Shown here in pieces: positions 3,743-20,181 of a stretch of DNA of 35,112 bases. Source of the DNA: an uncultured Clostridium sp. (GTDB taxonomy: Bacteria; Bacillota; Clostridia; Lachnospirales; Lachnospiraceae); assembly GCA_945915475.1 (NCBI GenBank), contig CAMEFI010000033.1:1-35112 (forward strand), read 5' to 3'. A model generated the notes under the pieces. It saw only the letters and a list, made by a program, of their open reading frames with translations, searched no databases and was not told the DNA's origin. How positions within the stretch are numbered: the stretch's first letter is position 1; each line of letters opens with the position of its first letter. The translations under genes were made by a program, and so were the position numbers.

Positions 3743-3802
3743 CTGCATTCTCTCCTTACACTCCCGTGTGATACCTCTTACCCTATCCTCTTGTTTCCTA
3801 CA

Positions 3803-4864
3803 TCATATAAGAACAGCAGCCACACCCTGTTCTCCCATCATACAGTCCTGCGGTATATCTGCTCCATCCGGCAGTCCAATATATAGGAAACTTCCGGCAG
3901 AGGGATATTCTTTCAGGAACAGTTCTTTCGCTCTTGTGTCATTGTCATAACAAATATCATACAGCATAAGTTCCATCCACTGTCTTTGTTCCACTTCATT
4001 CCCTATATACATCTGTTGCAGCCTACCCTGCTTCACACTGTAATAATGCACCGTAAATGGCATATTCTGTTTCACAAATGCTTTTGTGATACTGTCTGCA
4101 AGCTGAAGTACACTCTCCACACGCATCTTCTCATCATTTGCCAGTTCCACCAGAACATGAAGCTGCATTGCCGATACACTGACACGCTCTTTTACCATCA
4201 ACTCATCCTTTTTCGTAGAGAGCTTCCAATGGATATTTTGCAGTTTATCCCCCGGAATATATTCCCGAATTCCGGTAATATCCGAAAAGTCATATCCTTT
4301 TTCCCTGCTTTCCATTGCTTCTGACACACCCTTTTGATACAGAGTTCCCGCTTCCTGCTCTCTACATTCTCCAGCCGGCAACACCAGGCATTCCGTCTGT
4401 TTCTTAAGGGGAATCTGTACAACATACATACCTGACAGGTCCATACAGGTAATCCGTTCCGCTGTAAGCACAAAATGCCCGCATCGTTCCATCACAACCG
4501 GATATACAATCTCTGTCTTATGATGTGCCCTTAGGGGAACATTTAATTCATGTTCTCCCCTGCTTCCATAAAATGCATTCTCCACGCGCAAAGATAATGT
4601 TACATTCACTAAGGGAAACCATGTGGGATTATCTATATCCACATAGACATGAAATTCCTCGTTCTTCACCATATCCTCCCTGGGGCACCGCAATGTCACC
4701 TGTAGATGCTGTCCCGCCCGGTATACCCCATATATGCTGTATGCAGGAAATAAAACCATGCCCACTAACAAAACCAGATTCACATAGCTGTGAAATGCAA
4801 GCATGATAAATATATTCAAAGCAAACGCTACCAAATAGCGCAATACATTTCGAATTCGTATCAT
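3803..4864 (-). CDS. DUF58 family protein
   Basis: DUF58 proteins form a module with MoxR ATPases and membrane transglutaminases; the fold is von Willebrand A-like but the biochemical role is not settled. The 353-residue protein has two membrane segments near the N-terminus (about 8-45), a beta-rich middle region, and the family signature DITGIREYIPGD followed by IHWKLS (about residues 195-215). The start has GGAGG 7 bases upstream, and the gene begins 15 bases after the ATPase stop, which supports co-transcription. A further 60 or so bases separate it from the transglutaminase start. Confidence 0.9.
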   Translation of the reverse strand: MIRIRNVLRYLVAFALNIFIMLAFHSYVNLVLLVGMVLFPAYSIYGVYRAGQHLQVTLRCPREDMVKNEEFHVYVDIDNPTWFPLVNVTLSLRVENAFYGSRGEHELNVPLRAHHKTEIVYPVVMERCGHFVLTAERITCMDLSGMYVVQIPLKKQTECLVLPAGECREQEAGTLYQKGVSEAMESREKGYDFSDITGIREYIPGDKLQNIHWKLSTKKDELMVKERVSVSAMQLHVLVELANDEKMRVESVLQLADSITKAFVKQNMPFTVHYYSVKQGRLQQMYIGNEVEQRQWMELMLYDICYDNDTRAKELFLKEYPSAGSFLYIGLPDGADIPQDCMMGEQGVAAVLI

Positions 4865-4879
4865 ATTGCCTCCTCTTTC

Positions 4880-5806
4880 CTATGTCCTCGGCACTCTGAT
4901 ACCTTGAAAGAGATCGTCCAGCGCTTCATGGATTGTCTTGCCTTCGGCACGGGCCTTCGTGCTTAATTTCACGCGATGACCAAGGACATCATGGAATACG
5001 TTACGGATATCTTCCGGTGTTACGTAATCTCTGCCATAGAGAACGGCCATTGCTTTCGCCATACGAAGCAGTGCAATACTTCCTCTTGGGCTGGCACCCA
5101 TAGAAAACCACTCGTGATATCTGGTTGCTTCCACAAGGGTTACAATGTATTCGTAAATGGAATCGTGTACATACATATCGTTTGTCTGTTTTCGAAGTGC
5201 TCTGAATTCATCTGTCGTAATGGCCGCCACCAGTTTTGAAAGCGGTTTTCCGGCATTTTCTTTCAAAATATCCACCGCTGCTTCATGTTGCGGATATCCC
5301 ATGGAAAGACAGACCATAAAGCGGTCTAACTGGGACTCCGGTAACATCTGTGTTCCGGAAGAACCAAGGGGATTCTCTGTTGCGATGACAGTAAAAGGAT
5401 CCGGCAATTCTCTTGTCACACCGTCCACAGTAACCGTTCCTTCCTCCATTACCTCCAAAAGTGCCGACTGCGTCTTTGGAGAAGTCCGGTTAATCTCATC
5501 CGCTAAGAACAGATTGCACAGTACCGCTCCCGGCTGATACTCAAAGCTCCGGTTTTCCTGATTATACATGGAAAATCCAACAATATCACTTGGCAGTACA
5601 TCCGGTGTAAACTGTACCCTGCGATAACTTAAAGACATGGAGCGGGCAATTGCCATTGCAAGGGTTGTCTTACCTACACCCGGAATATCCTCTAATAAGA
5701 CATGCCCTCCTGCAAGCATGGCAGCTAAAACCTTCTCCACAACTTCATTTTTTCCTTTCACCGCTTTCTCAATCTCCGCCTTCACATCTAACATCTTATT
5801 ACTCAT
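4880..5806 (-). CDS. MoxR family AAA+ ATPase
   Basis: AAA+ ATPase that likely acts as a chaperone for the DUF58 and transglutaminase partners encoded next to it. Visible are Walker A GVGKTTLA, the MoxR signature FTPDVLPSDIVGF, Walker B LFLADEINR, sensor 1 ATENP and the arginine-containing QLDRFM. The C-terminal lid follows. About 308 residues is the normal family length. The reading frame extends to a TTG at 5812, but the ATG at 5806 has GAGGG 7 bases upstream and is preferred. Confidence 0.93.
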   Translation of the reverse strand: MSNKMLDVKAEIEKAVKGKNEVVEKVLAAMLAGGHVLLEDIPGVGKTTLAMAIARSMSLSYRRVQFTPDVLPSDIVGFSMYNQENRSFEYQPGAVLCNLFLADEINRTSPKTQSALLEVMEEGTVTVDGVTRELPDPFTVIATENPLGSSGTQMLPESQLDRFMVCLSMGYPQHEAAVDILKENAGKPLSKLVAAITTDEFRALRKQTNDMYVHDSIYEYIVTLVEATRYHEWFSMGASPRGSIALLRMAKAMAVLYGRDYVTPEDIRNVFHDVLGHRVKLSTKARAEGKTIHEALDDLFQGIRVPRT

Positions 5807-5827
5807 ACACAAACCCTCACATTATTT

Positions 5828-7114
5828 CTATCTCGTATGTTTGTTAACATATTTGGCCTTATACTTCGAATATACAATCGTCTGGTCTTTGTACAGACTA
5901 TAATATCCGGACACCGCATAACTTATGGATACTGCAATCAGATAATAGGATACCCCCTCAAAGCCAAACAATTCGAAGGCAATCAAAATAGATGTAATGG
6001 GACAGTTTGTCACCCCGCAAAATACGGCAACCATTCCTGCCGCTGCACAAAGCGATGGGGAAATTCCGATAAAATGTCCCAATTCACAACCAAGTGCTGC
6101 TCCAATACAAAAGGATGGCACAATCTCTCCTCCCCGGAATCCTGCCCGCATTGTAAGGACCGTAAGCAGCATTTTCCAGAAGAAAGCAAAATTACTCACT
6201 TCTCCCTGTTCAATTGCTTGTTCAATAATATTTGTACCTGCCCCCATATACTCTGTTGTCCGAAGACAGCACGTCAATACAATGATCACAATACTAACCC
6301 CCACAATCCGGATATATGGATTCTTAAGATACTTCTGCAACAGTACATTGGTCTGTTTCAACGCAATACAGAAAATCGTACTTAGCAGTGCACAACAAAG
6401 TGCAATCACACCCATCTTGAAACCATCCACCAGTGTCAGTTCCGGTATCCCTGTAACGTGAAACAGTTCGGGATGAATTCCCAGGCTGGCTGCAAAGTTA
6501 GATGCAATCAAAGATGAGATCATACACGGCATCAATGCAGTATAATACATAACACCAACACTTACCACTTCCAATGCAAATACCGCTGCTGCCATAGGTG
6601 TCCCAAACAACGCCGAGAACGCAGCACTCATACCGCACATAACGATAACATGCATGTCTTCCTCATCTAACTTAAGCCATCTTCCCAACTGGTTGCCAAT
6701 ACTTCCACCAAGCTGGATTGCTGCCCCCTCACGCCCTGCCGAACCACCTGCTAAATGAGTTAGTGCAGTGGTTATAAAAATCAATGGTGCCGAGCGAAAA
6801 GGCACTTCATCCCGGGCTTTCACTGTAGAAAACACCTGATTGGTGCCGCCATCCTCTTTTCCAATCCATCTGTACAGGAATACGATCACAACTCCTGCCA
6901 CCGGCAAAAGGAAAAACACCCATAAATGTTCCGTCCGAAACGTAGTCACTTTTGTAAGAACAAAGGAAAAGGCACTGCTTACTCCTCCCACCACAAATCC
7001 GGTTAAAAAGGCAAGAAAAAGCCACTTTACAAAGCTTCCTGCATCTTTCCGGAATCGTCTCTCATAATAAGGTACAAATCCTTCTCCATTATGGTAATTC
7101 TCCCAGTCAATCAT
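5828..7114 (-). CDS. CLC family anion channel or antiporter
   Basis: Integral membrane CLC protein of 428 residues with many hydrophobic helices and no C-terminal CBS domains. The conserved helix-N-cap motif GGSAGREG lies at 123-130, with E129 in the position of the gating/proton glutamate, followed by AAIQLGG. The first selectivity motif, GSGIP in chloride transporters, reads GGTNQ (89-93) here. The later region GEIVPSFCIGAALG corresponds to the GxFxP motif in diverged form. The GGSAGREG context recalls the fluoride/proton CLC subgroup, but I cannot assign the ion from motifs alone. GGAAGGG-like ribosome binding site with 9-base spacing; it begins 18 bases after the MIF-family gene. Confidence 0.9.
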   Translation of the reverse strand: MIDWENYHNGEGFVPYYERRFRKDAGSFVKWLFLAFLTGFVVGGVSSAFSFVLTKVTTFRTEHLWVFFLLPVAGVVIVFLYRWIGKEDGGTNQVFSTVKARDEVPFRSAPLIFITTALTHLAGGSAGREGAAIQLGGSIGNQLGRWLKLDEEDMHVIVMCGMSAAFSALFGTPMAAAVFALEVVSVGVMYYTALMPCMISSLIASNFAASLGIHPELFHVTGIPELTLVDGFKMGVIALCCALLSTIFCIALKQTNVLLQKYLKNPYIRIVGVSIVIIVLTCCLRTTEYMGAGTNIIEQAIEQGEVSNFAFFWKMLLTVLTMRAGFRGGEIVPSFCIGAALGCELGHFIGISPSLCAAAGMVAVFCGVTNCPITSILIAFELFGFEGVSYYLIAVSISYAVSGYYSLYKDQTIVYSKYKAKYVNKHTR

Positions 7115-7132
7115 CTTCTCTGTCCCTTCCGG

Positions 7133-7477
7133 TTAGAAATTGCTGCCATTCCAGCCCCAATTTGTTACCGCTTCGTATTTGATATAGATATGGTCCGGTG
7201 CTATTCCCAACACCTCATGAAATATCTTCGTAATCTCCGCCGTCATGGCATCAAAGGCAGCCGGATTCTCCTTACCGAATACCTTGACCTCAATAAATGC
7301 AGAAGGCTCACTGTTATCTCCCCGGAAATACAAATGATAATTATCCTCAAATCCTGTCATCAGCCAGGATTCACTCTTTCCCGGGATCAGGGAAATGGCC
7401 TGTCCTAATCTTGTCTTCAATTCCGCTTCCTGCTGGTCACCCAGTGTTACACTTACTTTTGAATTAATAAATGGCAT
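7133..7477 (-). CDS. MIF/tautomerase family protein
   Basis: Small protein of 114 residues of the macrophage migration inhibitory factor family (phenylpyruvate or dopachrome tautomerase fold). The start is fixed by AGGAGG just upstream of ATG and by proline directly after methionine, since Pro1 is the catalytic base after removal of Met. The KSESWLM stretch matches the conserved lysine region, and the C-terminus WGWNGSNF is typical. A longer frame to 7537 would run through a hairpin and is rejected. First gene after the hairpin and probably co-transcribed with the CLC gene. Activity in this organism is unknown. Confidence 0.9.
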   Translation of the reverse strand: MPFINSKVSVTLGDQQEAELKTRLGQAISLIPGKSESWLMTGFEDNYHLYFRGDNSEPSAFIEVKVFGKENPAAFDAMTAEITKIFHEVLGIAPDHIYIKYEAVTNWGWNGSNF

Positions 7478-7500
7478 AATATTTCCTCCTTTACTATTGA

Positions 7501-7532
7501 AAGAGACCGGACAGTCTGGTCCGGTCTCTTTT
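7501..7532 (-). terminator. Hairpin between kinase-like and MIF genes
   Basis: Perfect 12-bp stem AAGAGACCGGAC / GTCCGGTCTCTT (7501-7512 and 7519-7530) with a 6-base loop. It follows the kinase-like gene on the minus strand; only three T residues follow on that strand, so it may be a weak terminator or attenuator. Confidence 0.6.
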
Positions 7533-7577
7533 GACACTATTCCTTTCAGGACTCCCTCGCAAAATTGTACTCAGTAT

Positions 7578-8180
7578 CTATTCTGCTAAAAACCGGTCAA
7601 TGTATGCGATTAAGGACTCTACCGTCTTCTCCACACCAAGGGTAGAACTGTTGACACAGACATCATAGCTTCTGGAATCGCCCCACTTTCCATCTGCATA
7701 GAAGTTGTGATACGTCTTACGCATCTTATCTTCTTTGCGCATCCGGCTTAATGCAGCCTTCTCATCTAACTGGTACTTCTCCATAACACGTTGCTTCTTT
7801 GTCTCCTTATCCCCGAGGATAAAGATGCTCACCACATTGGGATTATCCCGAAGTACATACTCCGCACACCTGCCAACAATGACAAAGGATTCTTTCTCCT
7901 TATCTCCCTTTGTACGGATAAAATCAAATATATGATTCGCCACCGTCTGCTCTAACGGAAGATAACTTCCATCCATAGATACCGGATAGAAAATCGGATT
8001 CACCGGTTTCTCATCAAAATACTTTGCAACATCTGCATTGATGGACCCTTTCTTCTCTACATGATCAAAGATCTCCTTATCATATAATGGAATATTATAA
8101 TGCTTTGCCAGACATTCGGCAATCTCATGACCGCCACTACCAAATTCTCTTCCCACTGAAATAATAATCTGCTTACCCAT
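7578..8180 (-). CDS. Cytidylate kinase-like family protein
   Basis: A 200-residue P-loop protein of the cytidylate-kinase-like family common in Clostridia; its true substrate is not known. The N-terminal GREFGSGGHEIAECLA (about 10-25) is the modified P-loop, followed by YDKEIFD; FVIVGRCAEYVL and a lid-like arginine-rich stretch (LSRMRKEDKMRKTY) come later. ATG start with a GAAGG-type site. It has its own extended -10 promoter and is followed by a hairpin, so it may be monocistronic or lead into the MIF-CLC-MoxR run. Confidence 0.85.
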   Translation of the reverse strand: MGKQIIISVGREFGSGGHEIAECLAKHYNIPLYDKEIFDHVEKKGSINADVAKYFDEKPVNPIFYPVSMDGSYLPLEQTVANHIFDFIRTKGDKEKESFVIVGRCAEYVLRDNPNVVSIFILGDKETKKQRVMEKYQLDEKAALSRMRKEDKMRKTYHNFYADGKWGDSRSYDVCVNSSTLGVEKTVESLIAYIDRFLAE

Positions 8181-8262
8181 AACCCATACCTTCTTTCTGC
8201 CCTGTCAATTCTGTTGAAATGATACATAATTCCTGCGTCCCGATTTCTCTGTCGATAGGGAT

Positions 8263-8271
8263 ATTATAGCA
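8263..8271 (-). promoter_or_regulatory. Extended -10 promoter of kinase-like gene
   Basis: Minus strand reads TGCTATAAT, a perfect extended -10, about 85 bases before the start codon; the -35 is poor (TTTAAA at 17 bases). Confidence 0.55.
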
Positions 8272-8319
8272 TATATTGTCAGATTTTTAAAGAATTTTTA
8301 AAAGCATTTTGCGGCAATT

Positions 8320-9627
8320 CTACAACTTCTTACACTCCATATAGTAACGTTTCTCATTGGCCTCTCCCATGGAGAATGTCTTACGTGGAAGGACTCCATC
8401 CTTAACCACACCAATAAACAGATCACCCTTCTCCACCTCCGGTAAACGAATTCCGAGGTTCCCTTTCTGAAGTGCCAGCTTTCTCACCGTATCTGTTCCG
8501 TGAATATAATCAATCTTACACTGTGGATGTGCTAACAGATAGTCATCTAGAAAATTCTGTATGGTTGCTGCTGCAATCCCCCATACCGGGTGAATCACCT
8601 CCATGCACCGTTCTCCGTCCACACTGCAGATTGAAAATACATGATGTTCCTTATCTGCATAGGGTTCTCTTTTCCCTTCCCGCACTTCTACCCGGCATCC
8701 ATGTTCTTCATAATATGCAACAGCTGCTGCAAGGAAATCATCCTCCTCCACTCCAAAAAGCACGCGATGAATCGGTTCAATTTCCAGGCTCCGGTCATGC
8801 ACATTCACAATCTCACAAAGACAGAAACGAGCCGGATGATTCTTGCGTTCTTCCTCACTTAAATTCTTCTTGATATTCTCCCATGCAGCCTTCGCTGTTG
8901 CCATGGAATGATTCCCATCTCCCACTGCAAGGTTAAGAAGCGGATATTCCTTATCCAGTTCGTATTTCTTTTGAAATGCTTCCGGATCGGCAAGTTGTTC
9001 AATCGCCTTCATAATCTTTGACGTCTCATCCCCTTCCGGAATCAGCCATCCCGTGATATGTCCGCCTTTTTGCATCAGATCTGTATCATATATCTGCCGG
9101 AAATCCTTTGTTCTTTCCAGCAAAGGTTCGATAATGGAACAGTCCGGGTCATCAATTAACAGCATGATATGTGGGAGTTCCACACTTGCAGTCTGTCTTA
9201 CCTTAAGTCTCGGCGGGATTCTTTCCTCCACCGTCATCTCCGTCGGCCGAATCAGGCTTGTTGAACCCTTCTTATACTCATAAGTTTCCAGATCTATCTC
9301 CACCACCAGACCTGCTCTCGCATACTGCTTCTGAAAACTTCTTTCCACCAGCATGAATCCCTTGGGAAGCTTCTGCAAAGTTCCTTCCTTCACATAAGTA
9401 TCCATACAATTATGAATCTGATCAATTCTTGTCTCTTCATCCTCGCTTTCCAAATATACTTCCGGTAAGATCATATGTAACGTAGAAGGTTCCTCTCCTA
9501 CTATGGACTCACTTTCCTTCCAGTAATCCGGCTGCGATGTATATTGATCGCATGCCACAACCGACCATTTGTACAAATCTGTTCCTGCCTTAGGCATCCA
9601 TATTTCAGGTACTCGTAAACAATTCAT
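8320..9627 (-). CDS. DUF1015 family protein
   Basis: A 435-residue cytoplasmic protein recognised as DUF1015 by the AVGDGNHSMATAKAAWE motif (about residues 232-248) and the opening pattern ending VACDQYTSQPDYW. The family is widespread in anaerobes and poorly characterised; it is sometimes found near serine/3-phosphoglycerate metabolism genes, which is not the case here. GGAGG lies 7-8 bases before the ATG. It appears monocistronic and is divergent from the XRE/S24 regulator, with a 170-base shared control region. Confidence 0.85.
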   Translation of the reverse strand: MNCLRVPEIWMPKAGTDLYKWSVVACDQYTSQPDYWKESESIVGEEPSTLHMILPEVYLESEDEETRIDQIHNCMDTYVKEGTLQKLPKGFMLVERSFQKQYARAGLVVEIDLETYEYKKGSTSLIRPTEMTVEERIPPRLKVRQTASVELPHIMLLIDDPDCSIIEPLLERTKDFRQIYDTDLMQKGGHITGWLIPEGDETSKIMKAIEQLADPEAFQKKYELDKEYPLLNLAVGDGNHSMATAKAAWENIKKNLSEEERKNHPARFCLCEIVNVHDRSLEIEPIHRVLFGVEEDDFLAAAVAYYEEHGCRVEVREGKREPYADKEHHVFSICSVDGERCMEVIHPVWGIAAATIQNFLDDYLLAHPQCKIDYIHGTDTVRKLALQKGNLGIRLPEVEKGDLFIGVVKDGVLPRKTFSMGEANEKRYYMECKKL

Positions 9628-10798: not shown

Positions 10799-11632
10799 CT
10801 AAAATGATAAAATGACTCCACCATCACTTGCGTAAAGCGAACTGATTCCCTTTGTATCAATGACGATTGCTTCCTGAAAGGGATACCGTTCCATCACCTT
10901 AGTCTTCACAAACTGTGCTCGCTCCAGGCAATTGCAATGTGCAATTACTATCACCTTATCCTCTAGATACTTTCCAATCTGTTCAATATAATCTATCATT
11001 TTGCCAATTGCCTGCTTCACGCCTCTTGCCTGTCCCACCTGGAGAATATTTCCCTCTTCCGCTTTCATGTAGGGCTTAATATTAAGGGCTGCTGCTGCCA
11101 GCGCCTTCACCTTCGATAAGCGTCCATTCTTACGTAATGTTTCCAGGGATTCTAATACAAACAGTGTCTGCATCTCATCCCGAAATGTCGTTACCTTTTC
11201 TACAATATCCGCAAATGCCATACCCTGCAGCGCATACTGTTCAATCAGGCGTGCAATCAGATACTGACCACAGGATGCAGATTCCGAATCAAATACATGA
11301 ATGAGAACCTCCGGGTGTTGTTCCTCGTACATGGACTTTGCCAGCATGGCACTATTATAAGAACCGCTAAGCTGTCCGGAAAGGGTCACTACAAATACCA
11401 TATCGGCTCCCTCAAAACATTCCATATACATCTCCGGAGAAGGACAAGCTGATTTGGGGCATTCCGGGTATTCTGCCACCCGTTGTAGAAAATCTTTCTG
11501 ATCAAAGGTCTCATCATCCACTATTTCTGTATCTCCAATGGTAATGGTAAGTGGAACAGACACTATATATTCTTTTTCCAGATCCTCCGGCAAGAAATCC
11601 GTACAACTATCCCCAACTATTCTAAAATTCAT
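10799..11632 (-). CDS. DegV family fatty-acid-binding protein
   Basis: DegV proteins bind fatty acids; the FakB members present them to the kinase FakA for phospholipid synthesis. The 277-residue protein has the N-terminal IVGDSCTDFLPEDLE, the TCPSPEMYMECFE-like motif (ACPSPEMYMECFE), the fatty-acid loop LSGQLSGSYNSA, and GRLSKVKALAA. The ATG at 11632 follows a G-rich ribosome binding site (GGGGGCAGAT); the frame extends another 26 codons upstream without a better site. It has its own promoter with a palindrome over the start site. No FakA gene is in the window. Confidence 0.9.
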   Translation of the reverse strand: MNFRIVGDSCTDFLPEDLEKEYIVSVPLTITIGDTEIVDDETFDQKDFLQRVAEYPECPKSACPSPEMYMECFEGADMVFVVTLSGQLSGSYNSAMLAKSMYEEQHPEVLIHVFDSESASCGQYLIARLIEQYALQGMAFADIVEKVTTFRDEMQTLFVLESLETLRKNGRLSKVKALAAAALNIKPYMKAEEGNILQVGQARGVKQAIGKMIDYIEQIGKYLEDKVIVIAHCNCLERAQFVKTKVMERYPFQEAIVIDTKGISSLYASDGGVILSF

Positions 11633-11687
11633 ATCTGCCCCCTGATAAATGCAAATCATTACAATGTAGTTGCAAAAACCCGCAACA

Positions 11688-11702
11688 TAGTATTCTATAC
11701 TA
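11688..11702. promoter_or_regulatory. Palindrome at DegV transcription start
   Basis: TAGTAT-TCT-ATACTA, a perfect 6-bp inverted repeat with a 3-base centre, positioned about +1 of the promoter at 11706-11734. A repressor operator is inferred. Confidence 0.4.
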
Positions 11703-11705
11703 CAT

Positions 11706-11734
11706 ATCATAGCACATGATATGATATTTGTGAA
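11706..11734 (-). promoter_or_regulatory. Promoter of DegV gene
   Basis: Minus strand TTCACA, 17 bases, TATGAT with TGC directly before it (extended -10). This separates the DegV gene from the upstream run. Confidence 0.6.
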
Positions 11735-11746
11735 GAGTGAATTTGT

Positions 11747-12718
11747 CTAATATACGTTAAATCCCAAATCCTCTAAAAAAACACTTAATTTCTTATAGCC
11801 ATATTCCTTATACTGAAACTGTGGAAACTGATTCTTTAACTTTCGTCCCAATGACCCGATTTCATGTTGGCCAATGACTTTCCGCGGATACAATTCAATC
11901 ATAAACCGGCAGACTTCTTCTAACTGGCTATCCACTCCGGATTCTTTCTTGCCAGACATTACAATGGCATGTGTACCCTCCTGATAAACCTTGAATTTGG
12001 TCTCCTTATCAATCAGCTCCCGGATAGACTTATATCCATAATCCTTCTCATCAAATCCAGGATAACGAAGCTGTATACGGCTCTTGATTCCACCAAGATC
12101 CGGTTCCTTTCCTGCATTCTCATCCATCTGTACCAGCTCATTTAATGCCATCTTAATATTTTTCAGCGGAATCTTTTTATTATTCTGTGCCGCTTTCTGA
12201 TTCTTGTCCGGTTTCCGGCTGTTCTGCTTTGGTGTTTTATTCTCTTTTATGTTTTTGTTATGTTCTTCCTTTTTCGTTTTATCTGTAAGCTGTTCCAATC
12301 CGACATATTCACTGCATGCCCTGCGAAGCCGTGGAGAGGCATCCTCTTTTCCCATACCTATCACTTCAATGTTTTCCTTGCGGATTCGTTCCACTAAACG
12401 GGTAAAATCCCCATCTGAAGTAATAATACAGAAGATATCTGCGTGATTCTCCTTATGTAGAAAATCCATGGCATCAATAACCAGTGCAATATCTGCTGCA
12501 TTTTTTCCTGCTTTTGTAGTATCTGCCTGATATCGCTGCAGATTATACTGCACAGCCTTACCGTTCCATTGCTTTGTGTTATTGTTATCAATAAAATCTC
12601 CATAAATCTGGGCAGAAATGATATCGCCCTGCTTTGTCAGATATTTCATAATTCCATCCGCAAACTTTGCACTAGTATTCTCTGCATCGATTAATAATAC
12701 GATTTTCTTTTCCTGCAT
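11747..12718 (-). CDS. NYN (PIN-like) domain protein with two LOTUS/OST-HTH domains
   Basis: Residues 1-145 are a LabA/limkain-type NYN domain, a PIN-like nuclease fold: D11 in LLIDAEN, D76 in AADIALVID, and D102/D104 in TSDGDF are the usual acidic metal-site residues, all present. A lysine-rich linker (146-183) follows. Residues 184-256 and about 264-323 are two OST-HTH/LOTUS domains, each ending in the YGYKSIRELI or YGYKKLSVFLEDL pattern; the family binds RNA, including structured G-rich RNA. The protein is therefore probably an RNA-targeting nuclease or RNA-binding regulator. It starts 27 bases after the protease gene with GAGGGTG upstream. Its RNA target cannot be inferred. Confidence 0.88.
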   Translation of the reverse strand: MQEKKIVLLIDAENTSAKFADGIMKYLTKQGDIISAQIYGDFIDNNNTKQWNGKAVQYNLQRYQADTTKAGKNAADIALVIDAMDFLHKENHADIFCIITSDGDFTRLVERIRKENIEVIGMGKEDASPRLRRACSEYVGLEQLTDKTKKEEHNKNIKENKTPKQNSRKPDKNQKAAQNNKKIPLKNIKMALNELVQMDENAGKEPDLGGIKSRIQLRYPGFDEKDYGYKSIRELIDKETKFKVYQEGTHAIVMSGKKESGVDSQLEEVCRFMIELYPRKVIGQHEIGSLGRKLKNQFPQFQYKEYGYKKLSVFLEDLGFNVY

Positions 12719-12745
12719 ATTTCACCCTCTGTTTCCAGTCTCCTC

Positions 12746-14740
12746 TTACCGGAGGCTCACCTTCTTAATTGCAGAAAAGCTTCCATATAATTTCTGCGAA
12801 TTCACCACTTTATATGGTCGCATTTTCACATAATAGGTTCCCTTTTTCATTTTCTTTGTATAAGAAGTAGCCGCTGCTTTGGAAATCGTCGCCAGCTTCT
12901 TATATTTCCCCTCTTTCGAGGATGCATAGAAGATCTCATATCCATTGACTCCGCTTCCCTTTTTCCATTGCAGTTTCAGCTTCTTACCACCTTGGGCCTT
13001 ATAATTCTTCACCTTAGCCGGGCCCACCGTCACCTTGCATTTCAAAGTTTTCGTCTTGTTGCCTGCTACAAAGGTCGCCTTTACAATAGTTGATCCATAT
13101 GCCTTCGCCTTTATCTTACCATTGCTGTTCACCGTAGCGATGTTCTTATTGGCTGATTTCCATTCTACCTTCCGATACACATCCTCTGATGTCTTCAATG
13201 ATAACTTGTATGTTCCACCCTTGGAAATGCCCAGACTCTTATCACTGAGCACAAATTTGGACTTCGTTTGTGTCACATCGGTATAAGCCTTAATTCGAAA
13301 ATTTGCTTTTTTCTTCAATACCCTTCCACTATCCTGGTAGGGAATTCCCTCATTGCCATCATACCACTTACCATCCACCTGGAAAAAGGACTGATTCTCT
13401 CCAACATTTGCAATGAACGTAATCCAGCTGCTTTGCAGCGAAGAATCTACACCGATATATGCTCTATTCCCATAGGAATCCTTCAGTTTCACCAAAACAG
13501 CAAAGGATTCACCCGCTGTCAGGGAAACCGGACTTGGCAATGAAATCGTCTGATAGCCTGCATCCGTCAACATACCGGAAACCGGCGTGTCAAACACCTT
13601 CGTTCCGCTTGTAGGTTTGCTTTTATCTTTCAGTCCGGTATATATCTGGACTTCATAATTACAATATGTTGTAAGGCAGTACACACCAACCGCTTTCAGC
13701 TCCTCATTATATCCATTCGCTCCTTTGGCCTGAAATACATTGGCATACCACTCCCCACCATTATAGGCATACGCCGGATTTGCCGAGCCATCGTACTGAT
13801 AATTATTATCATACTGTTCCCCGGCGGTAACCGCCTCAAATGCGATAAATTCGGTGATGGAACGATCCTCGTAGGACACATAGAAATATCCATCCTTACC
13901 AAACCGGGTTCCATAACTGTTCTTCACAATCCATGCTCCATCAGAAGCCGGTTTCACATTGAAATTATCCTTTGAATAAGAATCATCCCATCCTACAATG
14001 GTAACCGCATGATTCCCTCCCGTTGTCTGGCAGTTATAGGATGCATTGAGCATATTATAATAAGCTGCCTGCATATTGATACCGCAGGCAACTGCCCCAT
14101 GATCCGTTACTGCCTGCTTAATGGTCGCAACGGATTTGCTCAGATTCTGTACATTGTAGTTATACAGATATACATTCCGCACAGAATAGTCTGCAGCATA
14201 ACACAGAGATACATCCGGTATCGTCATATAAGGACTCCTTGCCTCTGTCGTTACCCCGGCCCAGGTCGCCAACGCAATGCCTGTGCCCTGCAAAGTTCCT
14301 CCTGCCGCCAGATAGTCCCCTTTTGCCGTTGTATTATAATCTCCTGCTGTATATCCTAACCTGTCCGTCTGGCGGTTATAGAAAAAATAGGCGAACTGGT
14401 TCTCGGACAAATCAATGGAATTATCCGCTTTTCCATTCTTTACAAGGTTGGCTTCAATGGCTGCAATGGAAGAAAACGACCAACAGCTTTCATTGTTCCC
14501 CTGATCCTTCACCGGTGTGATCCAGCCTTTCTCCCTTGCATCAAAATATGGAAGGGCTGCATTACCTCTTCTTACAATGGAACTCCCATCCCCACCATCG
14601 TGAACCTCTGCCGCCGGTAACCATGTATCACTGACCACAAATTCATCCTGTGCCGCATATGCCTTATCCACATTTCCACCTAGCAATCCCAAAGCAGCTA
14701 TACCGAGAAATGCTGCTGCATATATCTTCTTTCTTATCAT
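12746..14740 (-). CDS. Secreted papain-like (C1) cysteine protease with Big2 and FN3-like domains
   Basis: A 664-residue exported protein. Residues 1-30 form a signal peptide ending AYA. The mature protein starts with a papain-type catalytic domain: Q80 oxyanion residue and C86 in QGNNESCWSFS, H244 in GGNHAVTIVGW, N274 in IVKNSYGTRFG. Residues about 310-490 resemble the lectin-like domain that follows C1 domains in Clostridia (WYANVFQAKGANGYNEELKAVGVY at its start). A bacterial Ig-like (Big2) domain spans about 498-577 (ISKGGTYKLSLKT, ATVNSNGKIKAKAYG) and an FN3-like module about 580-664. No LPXTG anchor is visible. GGAGG lies 7 bases before the ATG. It shares the run with signalling genes, 23 bases from the upstream gene. 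Confidence 0.9.
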   Translation of the reverse strand: MIRKKIYAAAFLGIAALGLLGGNVDKAYAAQDEFVVSDTWLPAAEVHDGGDGSSIVRRGNAALPYFDAREKGWITPVKDQGNNESCWSFSSIAAIEANLVKNGKADNSIDLSENQFAYFFYNRQTDRLGYTAGDYNTTAKGDYLAAGGTLQGTGIALATWAGVTTEARSPYMTIPDVSLCYAADYSVRNVYLYNYNVQNLSKSVATIKQAVTDHGAVACGINMQAAYYNMLNASYNCQTTGGNHAVTIVGWDDSYSKDNFNVKPASDGAWIVKNSYGTRFGKDGYFYVSYEDRSITEFIAFEAVTAGEQYDNNYQYDGSANPAYAYNGGEWYANVFQAKGANGYNEELKAVGVYCLTTYCNYEVQIYTGLKDKSKPTSGTKVFDTPVSGMLTDAGYQTISLPSPVSLTAGESFAVLVKLKDSYGNRAYIGVDSSLQSSWITFIANVGENQSFFQVDGKWYDGNEGIPYQDSGRVLKKKANFRIKAYTDVTQTKSKFVLSDKSLGISKGGTYKLSLKTSEDVYRKVEWKSANKNIATVNSNGKIKAKAYGSTIVKATFVAGNKTKTLKCKVTVGPAKVKNYKAQGGKKLKLQWKKGSGVNGYEIFYASSKEGKYKKLATISKAAATSYTKKMKKGTYYVKMRPYKVVNSQKLYGSFSAIKKVSLR

Positions 14741-14763
14741 TCTTAGCCTCCTATACTGACTCT

Positions 14764-15807
14764 CTAAAGAGCTGTCCCTGTCATATTATCATGTGTCTGT
14801 ATTACTTTTTCTTCATATGTCTGTGCAAAGATATCTCCTTGAATGATATATATATCCGTGAGATCCTCCTCCCGGACTGCCATATAATCTCCCGGTCTGC
14901 CCAGATAGTATTCTTCCTCCCCGTTGGTAGGAAATACCTTTGTTCTCTCATCCAACATAACTGCATAGATTGCATTTCCCTGTCTTGGATAGCACAGATG
15001 CGCCAGCTCATCCAGGCTGACATAGCTGCCATCTGCAATCAATTCCGCCTCCGGAATAAAATCAAGCATCTGTTCAAATATATCTAACACTTCACCGGTA
15101 ACTTCATAGGTTCTCTCAAATTTGTGCCGGTTAATATCATAGGCTTCTCCCCTGCAGCCAATCATAATATACAGATCCGGCTGCGCCGTTAAGACAATTC
15201 CGGATTCATTTTCTAAGGAACGGATACGAAATGTCTCTCCCTCCTTTGTGATATCGGTGGATTTCACAAACGCCCATGGTATCTTCTTCTTCCGATATCG
15301 TGGAAGCTTTCTGATGGCCTCCTGTTGTCTGGTTCCATATTCCTTTGCATCTACAATCTGGGTCATGGTAAAATAAGAGGATATTCTGTCCAGATAATAA
15401 TCCATCGCATCTTCCATATCCATGCCAGACATCTGCACCTTCAGGATGGTAGAAGAGATTCTTCCGGCTGCCACCTGTGCATCTCCTGTTACAAGACCGA
15501 ATTCCGATATCATATAATCCATAAATTCAATCGCCCGTACTCTCTTCGTATCGCTAAAGAAATATAATCGGTCTTCTTCCTGTTCTTTCCAGACAAGTAA
15601 TAAGAAATGACAGTTTGTCTGCTTCCGGAACCTTTCAAAAACCTCCTGTTTAATTCCTGCTTCTTCCACCAGACCATTCCGATTCTGCCTATAAATAACC
15701 TCTGTTACCTCTGCAACTGCAAAGCCCAGTTTTCGGTTTTCAAAGCAACGCATTATTCCGGGAAATTCCTCTATATTGCTTGTTTCAAATCCATATTGTT
15801 CTTTCAT
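14764..15807 (-). CDS. Unrecognised protein, last gene of signalling cassette
   Basis: I do not recognise this 347-residue family. It is soluble, acidic and without membrane segments. The N-terminal third alternates beta and helical stretches (GFAVAEVTEVIYR, HFLLLVWKE, RLYFFSD). Near the C-terminus a stretch reads GRPGDYMAVREEDLTDIYII and then GDIFAQTYEE, which resembles the DY-x-D-Y-I-x-DIF-x-TYE pattern in small phage and regulatory proteins. The frame opens with GTG at 15822, but the ATG at 15807 has GAGG 5 bases upstream and is preferred. It lies 30 bases after the cyclase gene, so a role connected with the cyclase or the TIR protein is inferred from position only. Confidence 0.75.
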   Translation of the reverse strand: MKEQYGFETSNIEEFPGIMRCFENRKLGFAVAEVTEVIYRQNRNGLVEEAGIKQEVFERFRKQTNCHFLLLVWKEQEEDRLYFFSDTKRVRAIEFMDYMISEFGLVTGDAQVAAGRISSTILKVQMSGMDMEDAMDYYLDRISSYFTMTQIVDAKEYGTRQQEAIRKLPRYRKKKIPWAFVKSTDITKEGETFRIRSLENESGIVLTAQPDLYIMIGCRGEAYDINRHKFERTYEVTGEVLDIFEQMLDFIPEAELIADGSYVSLDELAHLCYPRQGNAIYAVMLDERTKVFPTNGEEEYYLGRPGDYMAVREEDLTDIYIIQGDIFAQTYEEKVIQTHDNMTGTAL

Positions 15808-15837
15808 GTCTACCTCATTCACTGTACTGCATCTTCC

Positions 15838-17394
15838 TTAGGGATTCACAGATTCCATAACCTGTCCTTCCACCGTTTGCGGCATAATATCCTCTGCGAA
15901 CTGCCGAAAATCATGATTCACGTGTGTAAAATGCAGAACTAACCGATTCTCCTTGACATCCACAATCTTTGCATATACCCCATCAAACAAAGGACATCCA
16001 TCCTCACGGGTTGCAGAAATTGCCACATCCGAGTAGATCTCTAACCGTTCCGCCATTGGTTGTCCGGGTACTTTCTGCTCCACAGTTGCCACCACCGCCC
16101 GTTTGAGAGAAAATTGTTCCAGTCTCGCCATAACCTTCTTTTCTGTTATGACTTTCTCCCGGATCCGGTATAAATGAAATAAAATCTTTTCAGTAACCGG
16201 AACCACTGCATCAAACTTGATATTTGTGATCACACAGCCATAATCTCCTCCAAGCGCTGTCACTTCACATACAGAAACCGGATTCTGGATTCCTTTTGCC
16301 ATGATCTTCATATGGTTATGTACTTCCACCGGTATTCCTATCTTATCCAATGCCTCCCGGGACACTAAAACCTGTCCGCCAACACTATAGCTTTCGATTC
16401 TGGAACATTCATTCACAACTTTACCCACAACATTATATCGCATCATCTTTTCCGATCCGACATTTCCAATAAAGGCCTCTCCGGAATGGATTCCAATTCC
16501 CATCTCCAAAAGCGGATATCCCTGTTCTTTGCAAAAGCCGTTCACATCACTCATCCTGTTCTGCATCTCAATTCCTGCTGCCACCGCATCTGCAATATGA
16601 TTCCCGGAAGAAAGGGGTGCCCCAAATACCGCAAGTACACCATCCCCTAAAAACTCAATAATGGTTCCCCGGTATTGGGTAATCACATCTGTCATCTGGT
16701 CAAAATAATAATTCAGCAGCCGTGTCACCGCTTCCGGCTCTAATTCCTCTGAAAGAGAGGTAAATCCACGCAAATCCGAAATCAAAACAGTCAATTCCCT
16801 CTTCTCTCCGCCAATGGAAGCGCCTTCAGCATGTTCTAATATCACCTCTAGTACCTTATCCGAAAAATATCGTCCGAACACATGATAAAGCAGTTCATTT
16901 CTGGACTTAAGTTTCTGATTAAGACGCATAATCTCCCTTGCTGCCTGCAGATCTCCCGCCTGTTTCTGTAACATCTTCTCATAATTCCGCGTCACCTCAT
17001 GCTGCCAGGCAACCCGCTCAATACGCAGAATACCGGATTGGGAAAATGGTTTGTGAAGTACAACCATTGCCCCCTTCGAAAAACATATCTCATCCAGTTC
17101 CTGATTGCGTTCTTCTGTCATGAAAAAAAGGGGCACCCCTGCCAATGCTTCCTGTTGTCTAATACTGGAAAGTGTAGAAAAATCTTCTTTGGAAGCCATC
17201 TGATAATCCATAATGATCAATGACGGAAAACTTCCGAAATCCGGTTTATCACTATTCTGCACTGCAATTGCCTTATGCACAGCCGCTGAAGACAACATAC
17301 AGAAAGCTCTCATGCTGCCTGTGGAATTAATCTTTCTTTGTGCCAGGACCATATCCTGCCTATTATCTCCAATTATCCAGATTACATGTTGCAT
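15838..17394 (-). CDS. REC-like / class III nucleotide cyclase
   Basis: A 518-residue cytoplasmic signalling enzyme. Residues 1-128 resemble a receiver domain: D63 in LIIMDYQ in the phosphoacceptor position and K115 in LHKPF, though the acidic pair at the N-terminus is incomplete. A coiled-coil linker (about 135-170) follows. The class III cyclase domain is at about 195-375: metal-binding D207 (LISDLRG) and D251 (FLGDGVLAVFGAP), transition-state N328 and R332 (VVNECSRIES). The residues that select ATP in adenylate cyclases, Lys and Asp, are E247 and N321. The C-terminal 140 residues are beta-rich and PilZ-like at best. The product could be cGMP, cAMP or another cyclic nucleotide. ATG with AGGAT 8 bases upstream; 25 bases after the TIR gene. 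Confidence 0.88.
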   Translation of the reverse strand: MQHVIWIIGDNRQDMVLAQRKINSTGSMRAFCMLSSAAVHKAIAVQNSDKPDFGSFPSLIIMDYQMASKEDFSTLSSIRQQEALAGVPLFFMTEERNQELDEICFSKGAMVVLHKPFSQSGILRIERVAWQHEVTRNYEKMLQKQAGDLQAAREIMRLNQKLKSRNELLYHVFGRYFSDKVLEVILEHAEGASIGGEKRELTVLISDLRGFTSLSEELEPEAVTRLLNYYFDQMTDVITQYRGTIIEFLGDGVLAVFGAPLSSGNHIADAVAAGIEMQNRMSDVNGFCKEQGYPLLEMGIGIHSGEAFIGNVGSEKMMRYNVVGKVVNECSRIESYSVGGQVLVSREALDKIGIPVEVHNHMKIMAKGIQNPVSVCEVTALGGDYGCVITNIKFDAVVPVTEKILFHLYRIREKVITEKKVMARLEQFSLKRAVVATVEQKVPGQPMAERLEIYSDVAISATREDGCPLFDGVYAKIVDVKENRLVLHFTHVNHDFRQFAEDIMPQTVEGQVMESVNP

Positions 17395-17419
17395 GCTGTC
17401 ATCCTGCTCTTTCTATCCT

Positions 17420-18340
17420 CTACCAAAGTGTATGCCATTTTCCTTTATAATCTGCCTTCTGCTTCTTTTGCGGATCCGCCTTGCATTTATCGCATAAGGT
17501 TCCTGTCCGGATCGGGGCTCCGCACGCTGCACACGGAACGCGAACCGAAGAACTCTTAGGAATCTCAAGATATTCATTCCGAAAAAAGTATTCAATAATT
17601 CTCCGTGGGACTCCAGTCTCCCGTTCGATCACGATTGCGGAAGTTGCACCTGCTTTCTCTAAATAATTCCTTATCGTCTGAAAATCATCATAGTTATCTC
17701 TGCCACACCGGACACAGCGGTAGGTACCAATCGTAATATTCTCTAAATCTTTGCAGCCGCAATACTGACAGGCAAGGGGGATCCTGTTCATCCGTAATGC
17801 ATTGGAATTACTCCGATTGCGGTTATTTCCGGAAGAAATAGCCGTAAGAACCCTTTTCTTCGGGTCTCCCGGTTCCATATTCCTGTCAGCTTCTCTTACC
17901 TGTTGAGGCGCCTTACCCGGTTCCGGCTGTTGCAAATCCGGTAATATCTGATAAATCTGTTTCTGCAGCTGTTCAAATGCACGCTCGGGATTCCTCGCAT
18001 AAGAAATCATCTGCACATTATTCAGATAAAACCGAAAAGTATCATTGATGACTACCTCCCGTATTTCAAAGGGAATAATGGTTTTTCGATTACAGATTGC
18101 ATTATCAATCTCCTTCTCCACCCAGATAGAATCCTGGGACATCGGAGATAACACCAGCAAAAAAAGACTACACTGCTGGATTGCTTTCGGTATCTCTCTT
18201 GCATAACTCGATCCTGCAGGTATCATTTCCGGTGCTTTCCAGTAACTTACACCCATACTGTCCAGCTGCTTCACTATTCTCTTAACAAACTCCTCATCAC
18301 GGGAGCTGTAACTGATAAAAACGGAATGTTCCTGTGCCAT
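17420..18340 (-). CDS. TIR domain protein with two zinc ribbons
   Basis: A 306-residue protein. Residues 4-118 form a bacterial TIR domain (VFISYSSRDEEFVKRI at the start). The motif W73-V-E-K-E77 matches the WVxKE motif of NAD-cleaving TIR domains such as SARM1, so E77 is the probable catalytic glutamate. A low-complexity linker (135-185) leads to a C-terminal module: zinc ribbon C191/C194/C209/C212, a helical HTH-like part (218-262, ending TGVPRRIIEYFFRNEYLEI), then a second ribbon C270/C273/C283/C286. The HTH plus second ribbon resembles the YvyF-type flagellar-operon protein. GGAGG lies 9 bases before the ATG. NADase, scaffold or effector roles are all open; the neighbouring cyclase suggests signalling. 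Confidence 0.85.
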   Translation of the reverse strand: MAQEHSVFISYSSRDEEFVKRIVKQLDSMGVSYWKAPEMIPAGSSYAREIPKAIQQCSLFLLVLSPMSQDSIWVEKEIDNAICNRKTIIPFEIREVVINDTFRFYLNNVQMISYARNPERAFEQLQKQIYQILPDLQQPEPGKAPQQVREADRNMEPGDPKKRVLTAISSGNNRNRSNSNALRMNRIPLACQYCGCKDLENITIGTYRCVRCGRDNYDDFQTIRNYLEKAGATSAIVIERETGVPRRIIEYFFRNEYLEIPKSSSVRVPCAACGAPIRTGTLCDKCKADPQKKQKADYKGKWHTLW

Positions 18341-18368
18341 ATCTCTTCCTCCTGCCTGTTTCCATTCC

Positions 18369-19373
18369 CTATGAGGCCATCACCCGGTTCCGTCCGGACA
18401 TCTTTGCCTTATATAAGCGGGCATCTACCTCTTCCACATTCTCATTCAATGACTGATTCCGGTCTACCTGCTTCACTCCAAAGGACATGGTAATCCGTAT
18501 CTCATTTCCCTCAAAGTCACAAACGGATTCCTCCACTTCTTTGCGTATGGTATTTGCAAAAATGACGGCTTTTTCCTCCGTGAAGTCATTCAAAAGCACA
18601 ATAAATTCTTCTCCTCCCCATCTTGCAGCCAGTCCCTTTCCTGCGGTGGCCATCCGCAGTCTGTCCGCCACCGACACCAAAACCGCATCTCCTGCATTAT
18701 GGCCATATGTATCATTGACCTTTTTGAAAAAATCAATGTCACACATTACAAGGGATGTTGTACATGCTGCCGCATCCGGTTTCTGAATCTCCCCATAATA
18801 ATCGTGGAATCCCCGCCGGTTCTTCAGATGGGTAAGGGGATCTAACTGGGTCTCCTCGTACAAAATATGTGACTCCAATGTCTTACCGCAAAATACTGCT
18901 GCCAGCGTCAGATGTTTGACGTCCTGTGCATCAAAGGAGCTCTCCTCATCCTCCCCGATCTTGTTGATTGCCTGGTATGCGCCGATGACATCCCCCCTGG
19001 CATTGGTCACCGGAAGACATAAAATAGACTTCGTTGTATATCCGGTACTCTTATCCACCTGAGGATTAAAGCGTCCATCCTCATACGGATTATTGATGAC
19101 GATTGTTTTTTTATTCTCAATGGATGCCCCAACTATGCCGGATCCTTCCGGCACTACAATCCGTTCACTGCCAAGTGCCGCTAATGTCCAATACTGTTTC
19201 TTAGCACGATCCCAGTACCAAAAAGATGCCCGTTCAGAATTCACAAGTGTTCTTCCCAGATCGGTCAACAGCAATATGGTTGGTATAAATTCCTTCTCCT
19301 CTACCAGCTGATTCATATAATAGAAAATCTGTTCCAGCATTTCTTCTGCCTGCAGCAATTGCTTATTGTGCAT
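18369..19373 (-). CDS. GAF-GGDEF diguanylate cyclase
   Basis: A 334-residue protein predicted to make c-di-GMP. Residues about 20-165 form a GAF domain (VPEGSGIVGASIENKKTIVI, then SILCLPVTNARGDVIGAYQA). The GGDEF domain is at about 175-334: DPLTHLKNRRGF at its start, metal site CDIDFFKKVND (D212), and the active loop RWGGEEF at 251-257. The product-inhibition I-site (RxxD just before the loop) is missing: the positions hold A244 and G247. GGAGG lies 7-8 bases before the ATG; it begins 25 bases after the TIM-barrel gene and is followed 28 bases later by the TIR gene. Confidence 0.92.
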   Translation of the reverse strand: MHNKQLLQAEEMLEQIFYYMNQLVEEKEFIPTILLLTDLGRTLVNSERASFWYWDRAKKQYWTLAALGSERIVVPEGSGIVGASIENKKTIVINNPYEDGRFNPQVDKSTGYTTKSILCLPVTNARGDVIGAYQAINKIGEDEESSFDAQDVKHLTLAAVFCGKTLESHILYEETQLDPLTHLKNRRGFHDYYGEIQKPDAAACTTSLVMCDIDFFKKVNDTYGHNAGDAVLVSVADRLRMATAGKGLAARWGGEEFIVLLNDFTEEKAVIFANTIRKEVEESVCDFEGNEIRITMSFGVKQVDRNQSLNENVEEVDARLYKAKMSGRNRVMAS

Positions 19374-19398
19374 ATTCGCTCCTCCAATGTCTTGTATT

Positions 19399-20181
19399 CT
19401 AGGATAAAAAACCTTTGAAATGATTCTTTAAATATTCCAAGGAACGCCTCTGGTTTTCTGGTGACGTTGTCTCAATTAAAATGCTGGAATCATAAAAATA
19501 CCGCTCCCGATATTTCATAAACTGACCCCAGTTAATCTGTCCATCTCCTACTGCAAGATGCTGATCCTTCCGAAAATCGTTATCATTAATATGAACATGT
19601 TTGATATAAGGGGACAATCCCTGCACCCAGAGTTCCATCGGTGAATGGGAAATACTGGCATGGGCATAGTCAAAACACACACCATAATTACCATATGCAC
19701 TTAACCGCTCCGAAATAGCAATCATAAGCTCCGGATCCGTATCAAACATGTTCTCTAAATAGATCTCGGTATCCGGATATCTCTTCAATAGACACTCCAT
19801 GTACCGGGATGTCAGCTCTACTGCCCGTTTGTCATATTCCTCACCGGAAAGCATGGGACTATAGTTCGTGTGAAAAACAACACCCTTTGCGCCAAGGCGC
19901 ACTGCAACCTTCATACTCTGTTCCATCCGAAGCTCCGAAATCTCTCTTATTCTCGGATCATAACTGAACACCACAATGTCGAAAAAAGCCCCATGCATCG
20001 TGCTTCCTTCCGGTAAACCATTCTTCTGATAAAGTGCAATTAACCGGTTCATCTCATCCTGATTCTCAAGTGCGTCCGGATGATAGAAATCATTCACTTC
20101 AAACCCAACGTTATACTCCCTTGCCAAAGCTTTATATTCCTCTATATCCTTTGCAAGTGATACAATCAATATCTTTCCCAT
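19399..20181 (-). CDS. Sugar phosphate isomerase/epimerase-like TIM-barrel protein
   Basis: A 260-residue protein of the xylose-isomerase-like / AP endonuclease 2 TIM-barrel superfamily. Conserved metal-ligand positions are visible: E in FEVNDF, H in VFHTNYSP, E in IYLENMFD, D and H in CFDYAHA, H and D in KHVHINDND, and E in ILIETTSPE. The substrate is unknown. The ATG at 20181 has AGAGGGG 5-6 bases upstream; the frame also opens with TTG at 20214, which has no site. It is the first gene of the run that continues through the GGDEF, TIR and cyclase genes, divergent from the dehydrogenase gene. Confidence 0.85.
   Translation of the reverse strand: MGKILIVSLAKDIEEYKALAREYNVGFEVNDFYHPDALENQDEMNRLIALYQKNGLPEGSTMHGAFFDIVVFSYDPRIREISELRMEQSMKVAVRLGAKGVVFHTNYSPMLSGEEYDKRAVELTSRYMECLLKRYPDTEIYLENMFDTDPELMIAISERLSAYGNYGVCFDYAHASISHSPMELWVQGLSPYIKHVHINDNDFRKDQHLAVGDGQINWGQFMKYRERYFYDSSILIETTSPENQRRSLEYLKNHFKGFLS

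Follow-up and report, generated by a model that had tools for sequence, protein, structure and literature searches.

What purpose might a TIR protein serve when its gene lies directly beside that of a class III nucleotide cyclase: immunity, or everyday signalling? The question is raised by a DNA stretch of 35,112 nucleotides from an uncultured Clostridium sp. of the Lachnospiraceae (contig CAMEFI010000033.1 of assembly GCA_945915475.1; the whole stretch is hereafter the window), in which a minus-strand unit encodes an endonuclease IV (EndoIV)-like barrel protein (AP), a GAF-GGDEF protein, a TIR protein, a class III cyclase and a further protein, here called U. A first-pass annotation had left the choice between a new two-nucleotide immune system, on the pattern of Pycsar defence, and a housekeeping signalling module. 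The answer proposed here, which we hold to be moderately probable, is a chromosomal operon in which a receiver-controlled guanylate cyclase would make cyclic GMP (cGMP), cGMP would gate the synthesis of cyclic di-GMP (c-di-GMP), a metal-dependent phosphodiesterase would reset the system, and U and the TIR protein would act as partners.

Among 250 family genomes, from 248 genera other than the window's, long matches to the TIR protein, the cyclase and U fall in the same seven, and in 7/7 the three genes are mutually adjacent; their co-occurrence, which the first-pass annotation had proposed to check, is beyond chance. A scan with the U alignment of one genome per species (84,980 species) found 64 loci, 41 of which (L109-L149) have U of the close type. 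Gene order was counted in the 40 loci with a called cyclase open reading frame (ORF), L145 being excluded (an antisense ORF was called there, and none for the cyclase or U). U adjoins the cyclase in 34 of the 40 and is fused to it in 6, and the TIR gene, of a type named TIR-YvyF for its C-terminus, lies directly upstream of the cyclase in 38. The two exceptions are L138, at a contig end, and L134, whose variant module (2945-8677) has cyclase-U followed downstream by another TIR protein, of 778 residues, without TIR-YvyF. GGDEF stands directly upstream of TIR in 26/40 loci; AP is present in 24/40, three times as an AP-GGDEF fusion, and tracks GGDEF (22/26 modules with GGDEF vs 2/12 without). 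Median intergenic gaps are 13-23 bases, and the gene order is retained across Lachnospiraceae. The AP-GGDEF and cyclase-U fusions argue for joint function. Since GGDEF is not adjacent to TIR in every locus, TIR, cyclase and U are the core of the module, and c-di-GMP is an attached arm.

In the window itself, the four minus-strand genes first recognised are confirmed (Table 1), with gaps of 28 and 25 bases at the GGDEF/TIR and TIR/cyclase junctions. The spacing of 25-30 bases claimed for them extends to the cyclase/U junction if U begins with the ATG at 15807 (30 bases), which fits the U homologues better than the GTG at 15822 (15 bases). The GGDEF, TIR and class III cyclase assignments also stood up (Pfam GGDEF, TIR_2 and Guanylate_cyc), as did the description of the fourth protein as unrecognised, for which Pfam gives nothing above cut-off. 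The four-gene cassette proved real but incomplete: a fifth gene, AP, 25 bases upstream of the GGDEF gene, is part of the unit, and the GAF domain as well as the receiver-like domain and C-terminal barrel of the cyclase had been overlooked. The unit is part of a longer run of eight genes on the same strand, which stretches from AP to DegV (10799-20181) and in which no gap reaches 40 bases. In scans of the window, terminator-like sites (7 vs a shuffled mean of 6.8) and promoter-like sites (34 vs 24.3, standard deviation 4.8) do not let an operon boundary be read, and no c-di-GMP riboswitch exceeds Rfam thresholds across the window, one tRNA being the sole match.

The cyclase (Pfam Guanylate_cyc, E 3e-25) is predicted, from its alignment and modelled fold, to be a guanylate cyclase turning GTP into cGMP. 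Its nearest solved natural protein is the guanylate cyclase Cya2 (2w01), with 47% identity over 198 residues, and the base-selecting position holds Glu, replacing the Lys of adenylate-type enzymes, in 41/41 copies (33 + 8, in two alignments). Longer cyclases of the same family (L090-L108), presumably of the CHASE2 type, have K or T there in 19/19. According to the available text of PMC5995499, the change E488K confers adenylate cyclase activity on Cya2. The cytidylate-type specificity residues of EaPycC (F100/R142/Q144 in the accessible part of PMC11224242) are not matched in the window, which has I205/E247/L249 at the positions spaced from the two metal Asp, the EaPycC set alone being compared. 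At the N-terminus, D63 of the receiver-like domain is nearly invariant (alignment A5). The C-terminal domain, missing in L128 and L129, has six strands and a helix in the AlphaFold2 model; PilZ, suggested by that fold, was rejected, Pfam PilZ matching 0/19 members even at E 10, a level at which HMMER filters discard most weak matches. Fold searches barely covered this domain and the C-terminal half of U, and therefore no new fold is claimed. Incidentally, in L176:11554-12765 a GAF domain is joined to an ABC-transporter ATPase, and a guanylate-type PAS-cyclase lies two genes away.

The GAF-GGDEF protein (Pfam GAF_2, E 4e-7; GGDEF, E 4e-38) fits a cGMP-gated diguanylate cyclase, as far as residues and homology can tell. 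Of the 22 solved sequences that a 23-member GAF profile matched, 20 are named cyclic-nucleotide phosphodiesterases (PDE5A, PDE2A, PDE6, PDE10A and others) or adenylate cyclase (1ykd), whose GAF domains we take to bind cyclic nucleotides; the last-ranked match is a PEP-protein phosphotransferase. The N, K, F and D of the NKFDE motif occur in 26/26 copies and the final E in 1/26, and D107, T110 and T114, which we chose as presumed contact residues from the PDE2A GAF-B structure, are conserved in 25/26, 21/26 and 25/26 copies. In all 26 the GGDEF signature is intact, including N220 and D229, the assumed guanine-recognition pair; judged by eye, the RxxD inhibitory site is presumably absent. In PDE5 GAFa, changing N, K or D of NKFDE lowers cGMP affinity, as stated in the available portion of PMC11977230.

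AP (Pfam AP_endonuc_2, E 1e-23; ATG start at 20181) has nine metal ligands, H65, H106, E145, D173, H176, H199, D208, H210 and E239 (numbered as in window:19399-20187), invariant in 28/28 module or operon copies and kept in all 40 sequences of a wider alignment (30 loci and 10 overlapping duplicates). The AP profile lines up all nine with endonuclease IV 5zhz, and the ligand set follows that listed for CpEndoIV in the accessible text of PMC13113976. A sugar isomerase was considered and ruled out, all nine EndoIV ligands being kept. Of the best 29 AP matches in the 250 family genomes, the window's and those of two other modules included, 25 lie within 4 kilobases (kb) of a class III cyclase, the remainder being in G004, G014, G190 and G080; down to E 5.3e-21 the count is 25/40. 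Because of this metal site and the pairing with class III cyclases, AP is a predicted cyclic-nucleotide phosphodiesterase, a candidate new type that would act on a mononucleotide. A mononucleotide is the likelier substrate because the partner cyclases of AP homologues are of both Lys and Glu type; c-di-GMP is still conceivable, since AP goes with GGDEF as counted above. In L302 and L303, genes similar to cyclic-nucleotide-binding (CNB) proteins adjoin AP. Other Lachnospiraceae barrels with a full EndoIV metal site near class III cyclases were noted in L173, L174, L302-L307 and L311.

On alignment and modelled fold, U is an orphan, degenerate DHHA1 domain whose catalytic DHH half has been lost: in an alignment with 14 intact relatives that retain them (DHH-U), 7 U proteins lack both the DHH domain and the GGGH motif. 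An assignment to the PNPOx family (Pfam E 0.006, below cut-off) is superseded by DHHA1, on fold and alignment. By eye, the C-terminal half of U (window 14809-15300) resembles a tandem duplication, with two stretches ending IFxxTYE or KFExTYE. The TIR protein (TIR_2, E 1e-21) has, as first reported, the NADase glutamate (E77, within WxxxE), invariant in 38/38 aligned copies, and NADase activity is possible. The zinc ribbons described in place of a nucleotide-binding domain are likewise present as CxxC pairs (C191/C194, C209/C212), and above cut-off Pfam finds TIR-type domains alone in this protein, with no cyclic-nucleotide-binding domain.

Taken together, the proposed operon would work as follows. 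A partner kinase would phosphorylate the receiver domain of the cyclase, which, going by sequence and modelled fold, would then make cGMP from GTP; cGMP, bound to the GAF domain, would turn on c-di-GMP synthesis by the GGDEF domain, a step proposed by homology and following the logic of XC_0250/XC_0249 of Xanthomonas. The AP barrel would hydrolyse the cyclic mononucleotide and so reset the system, as its metal site and cyclase pairing suggest. Fusions and fold suggest U as a partner of the cyclase, with a nucleotide-sensing or regulatory role. The TIR protein, its catalytic motif intact, would be a partner too, and the YvyF-like tail faintly suggests an output in motility or gene expression.

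As to whether such a system is chromosomal housekeeping or mobile immunity, a close U is found in 14/16 genomes of the genus (completeness at least 90%, contamination at most 5%), each time next to TIR and cyclase, and over 23 genomes the distances of the module follow those of rpoB (rho 0.71, 0/2000 permutations as high; a partial rpoB was used for G271). No relatives of U were found on plasmids (72,556 records) or viral contigs, and weak matches (26-29% identity) came from 2 of 50,697 phage records. Chromosomal signalling with occasional transfer, that is, the housekeeping alternative of the first-pass annotation, is favoured because the module is near-core in the genus, agrees in part with rpoB, shows no visible defence enrichment (see below) and gave no relative of U among plasmids or viral contigs. 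Conservation in core genomes of all Lachnospiraceae, which that annotation named as a sign against an immune role, is not what is seen, the module being found in 7/250 family genomes. Some side observations may be added: the weak phage relatives lie in unannotated human-faecal records (MT836910.1:3665-4402 and MT836060.1:5206-5766); the module of L121 (JAMPFJ010000002.1) matches that of G188, which belongs to the window's genus; and five genus members (L035, L213, L214, L224, L225) have a 1073-residue ORF close to the module.

Several observations weigh against the proposed operon. The receiver match of the cyclase (E 3e-6, 27.6 bits) falls below the Pfam cut-off of 30.2 bits, and at the second base-selecting position the cyclase has Asn or Ser where the E/G cousins have Gly. 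Among solved structures the GAF domain matches 4mcw best, which is a metal-dependent phosphohydrolase and not a cyclic-nucleotide phosphodiesterase; the last NKFDE residue is lost in 25/26 copies, and PDE2 GAFb, in the available part of PMC11977230, needs each of the five residues for cGMP binding. In 12/38 loci (L114, at a contig end, among them) GGDEF is not adjacent to TIR, so that the c-di-GMP arm is not obligatory, and the family-wide distribution just given is sparse. Within the genus the correlation with rpoB drops to rho 0.38 (39/2000 permutations as high), the two trees share 8/20 splits, and of the 14 splits that are strong in the module tree 5 disagree with strong rpoB splits, in four cases with splits including G125, which points to some transfer of the module. 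The lost E, in the light of PDE2, and the partial agreement of the trees are what lowered our confidence.

Among the rival explanations, one places the TIR protein upstream: an NAD-derived nucleotide made by it would be sensed by U, a dead phosphodiesterase, which would control the guanylate cyclase and through it c-di-GMP. In 35/65 places a full-length DHH-U gene has a TIR gene no more than two genes away, compared with 3/259 genes further off in the same loci (6/269 on a slightly different set), and the TIR Glu is intact in 35/35 of these neighbours; the loss of DHH and GGGH in U and the cyclase-U fusions point the same way. The 65 places include L179, where the ORF is cut and DHH not visible, and a WD40-only neighbour in L193 was not counted as TIR; the intact DHH-U sequences comprise 64 distinct ones, and alignment A6 was built without L151, L156 and L169. 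Yet many DHH-U loci come from related genomes, 30/65 places have no TIR within two genes, and DHHA1-like C-Ala domains can, to judge by paper titles, be plain dimerisation domains. This explanation is rather unlikely. The TIR neighbours of DHH-U are mostly of the TIR-WD40 or TIR-DUF6273 type, a second, cyclase-free TIR pairing (L041, L043-L045, L047, L049, L152, L154-L157, L159-L164, L166, L167, L169-L171 and others); near the pair with TIR-WD40 in L047, a NACHT-pentapeptide protein with a weak ADP-ribosyltransferase match (5396-8170) is a possible defence gene. Incidentally, L042:6457-9105 encodes a GGDEF-EAL protein of about 880 residues (Pfam-checked) within three genes of DHH-U, with no TIR gene near, and GGDEF genes of similar length lie near DHH-U in L040, L151, L168, L195 and L204, where likewise no TIR gene is close by.

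A comparably improbable rival is a mainly structural or regulatory motility module, in which TIR-YvyF would act on flagellar genes and the nucleotide enzymes would only tune it. Motility is commonly under c-di-GMP control, and the window's genome has a separate YvyF-like gene ahead of flgM, flgN, flgK and a flagellin-type gene. The TIR C-terminus is related to YvyF (NCBIfam TIGR03826, E 5e-15), but its 55.7 bits are far under the curated cut-off of 124.15; by this comparison it is a YvyF-related region, not a YvyF member. Besides, the operon's own genes include no flagellar gene in Pfam or NCBIfam, and we know of no established function for YvyF. A second stand-alone YvyF-like gene of the same genome (L208:7014-7544) lies beside a putative Methyltransf_4 methyltransferase gene.

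The pieces could also be joined into a three-tier relay, in which an NAD-derived signal from the TIR protein would reach U as receptor, then the fused or adjacent guanylate cyclase, then the PDE5-like GAF-GGDEF protein and c-di-GMP, with reset by the EndoIV-barrel phosphodiesterase. This is quite unlikely; if true, TIR chemistry would serve everyday signalling and not cell death.

As for defence, PADLOC (E 1e-15) was run on 140 of 194 flank and 140 of 172 control proteins, of 100-700 residues each. The generic mad3 family has 8/140 members in flanks vs 6/140 in controls; other families have one member each among the 25 of 39 flank families listed, and six control families have one or two. Proximity to defence genes, which the first-pass annotation had proposed to check, is therefore not visible as an enrichment over control stretches among the flank families listed, and none of the ten window proteins scanned matched a model of ThsA, the Thoeris partner. 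That a phage would switch the cyclase on, its product activate the TIR protein, NAD be destroyed and growth stop, as in Pycsar, is very unlikely: the class III cyclase does lie directly beside a TIR protein with an intact catalytic Glu, the PycC model PDLC00734 matches the cyclase (E 2e-23), the SAVED-TIR and ThsB models match the TIR domain (E 4e-11 and 1e-8) and there are signs of transfer involving G125, but the active site is guanylate-type, Pfam detects no cyclic-nucleotide domain on the TIR protein, the module is near-core, its flanks are unremarkable in the families listed, and U is not found on plasmids or viral contigs. Of the two-nucleotide immune system first imagined, the two nucleotides survive, as predicted cGMP and c-di-GMP, and the immune role is not supported.

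Table 1. Features of the operon, in positions of the window.
Feature	Position	Strand	Basis
AP: EndoIV-like TIM barrel (AP_endonuc_2), predicted cyclic-mononucleotide phosphodiesterase	19399..20181	-	Pfam, metal ligands, cyclase neighbours
GAF-GGDEF protein, predicted cGMP-responsive diguanylate cyclase	18369..19373	-	Pfam, solved-structure matches, motifs
GAF domain, cyclic-nucleotide type (N137, K138, F147, D151 of NKFDE)	18870..19373	-	Solved-structure matches
GGDEF domain (GGEEF, D212/D214, N220, D229)	18375..18854	-	Residues invariant in 26/26
TIR protein: N-terminal TIR (Glu77), C-terminal YvyF-like zinc-ribbon/helix-turn-helix region	17420..18340	-	Pfam, NCBIfam, alignment
YvyF-like region, residues ~184-297	17450..17791	-	NCBIfam TIGR03826, below cut-off
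Receiver-class III cyclase-barrel protein, predicted guanylate cyclase	15838..17394	-	Pfam, Cya2 similarity, alignment, model
Receiver-like domain (Asp63)	17029..17394	-	Pfam Response_reg, below cut-off
Class III catalytic domain (D207, D251, E247, N321, N328, R332)	16222..16812	-	
Cyclase C-terminal domain, predicted six strands and helix	15886..16185	-	AlphaFold2 model
U: orphan degenerate DHHA1 domain and apparently duplicated C-terminal region; ATG 15807 likely	14764..15822	-	

If the proposed reading is right, it offers a testable, genetically compact cGMP pathway in gut Clostridia, in which cGMP would be tied to c-di-GMP via a GAF receptor resembling the one in human PDE5. It would also point to a cyclic-nucleotide phosphodiesterase of the endonuclease IV type, and near-core signalling, not phage defence, would be the setting of a TIR protein whose catalytic motif is intact.

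To our knowledge, no described system has this combination of parts; a literature search (titles and abstract starts of the papers listed, few subscription papers) found no published description of a TIR-cyclase-GGDEF operon, nor, over the same titles and abstract starts, of an AP-type cyclic-nucleotide phosphodiesterase. Like Pycsar, as presented in the accessible part of PMC11224242, the module encodes a class III cyclase and a TIR protein together; unlike Pycsar, it has a guanylate-type active site, a TIR protein without CNB domain and no visible defence-gene context. U differs from the DHH-DHHA1 phosphodiesterases GdpP, DhhP and NrnA in lacking the DHH domain and the GGGH motif. AP shares the TIM barrel of endonuclease IV and CbiR (AP endonuclease 2 superfamily; PMC7733943 and PMC13113976, in their available text) and the nine-residue trinuclear metal site of the former, but its genomic partner, unlike theirs, is a nucleotide cyclase, and a cyclic nucleotide is therefore a likely substrate. 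The catalytic domain of the cyclase resembles Synechocystis Cya2 in the identity and the base-selecting Glu given above, whereas Cya2, in the accessible sections of PMC5995499, has a CHASE2 membrane sensor and Gly at the second position, in place of the receiver-like domain and Asn found here. A precedent is the cGMP to c-di-GMP relay of XC_0250/XC_0249 in Xanthomonas campestris (PMC3770947), of which the available text mentions no TIR, DHHA1, receiver-cyclase or EndoIV-like gene. In both, a class III guanylate cyclase, predicted in the operon, is linked to a GGDEF gene with an N-terminal domain of the cyclic-nucleotide-receptor type, but that receptor is a CNB domain in Xanthomonas and a PDE5/CyaB2-like GAF domain here.

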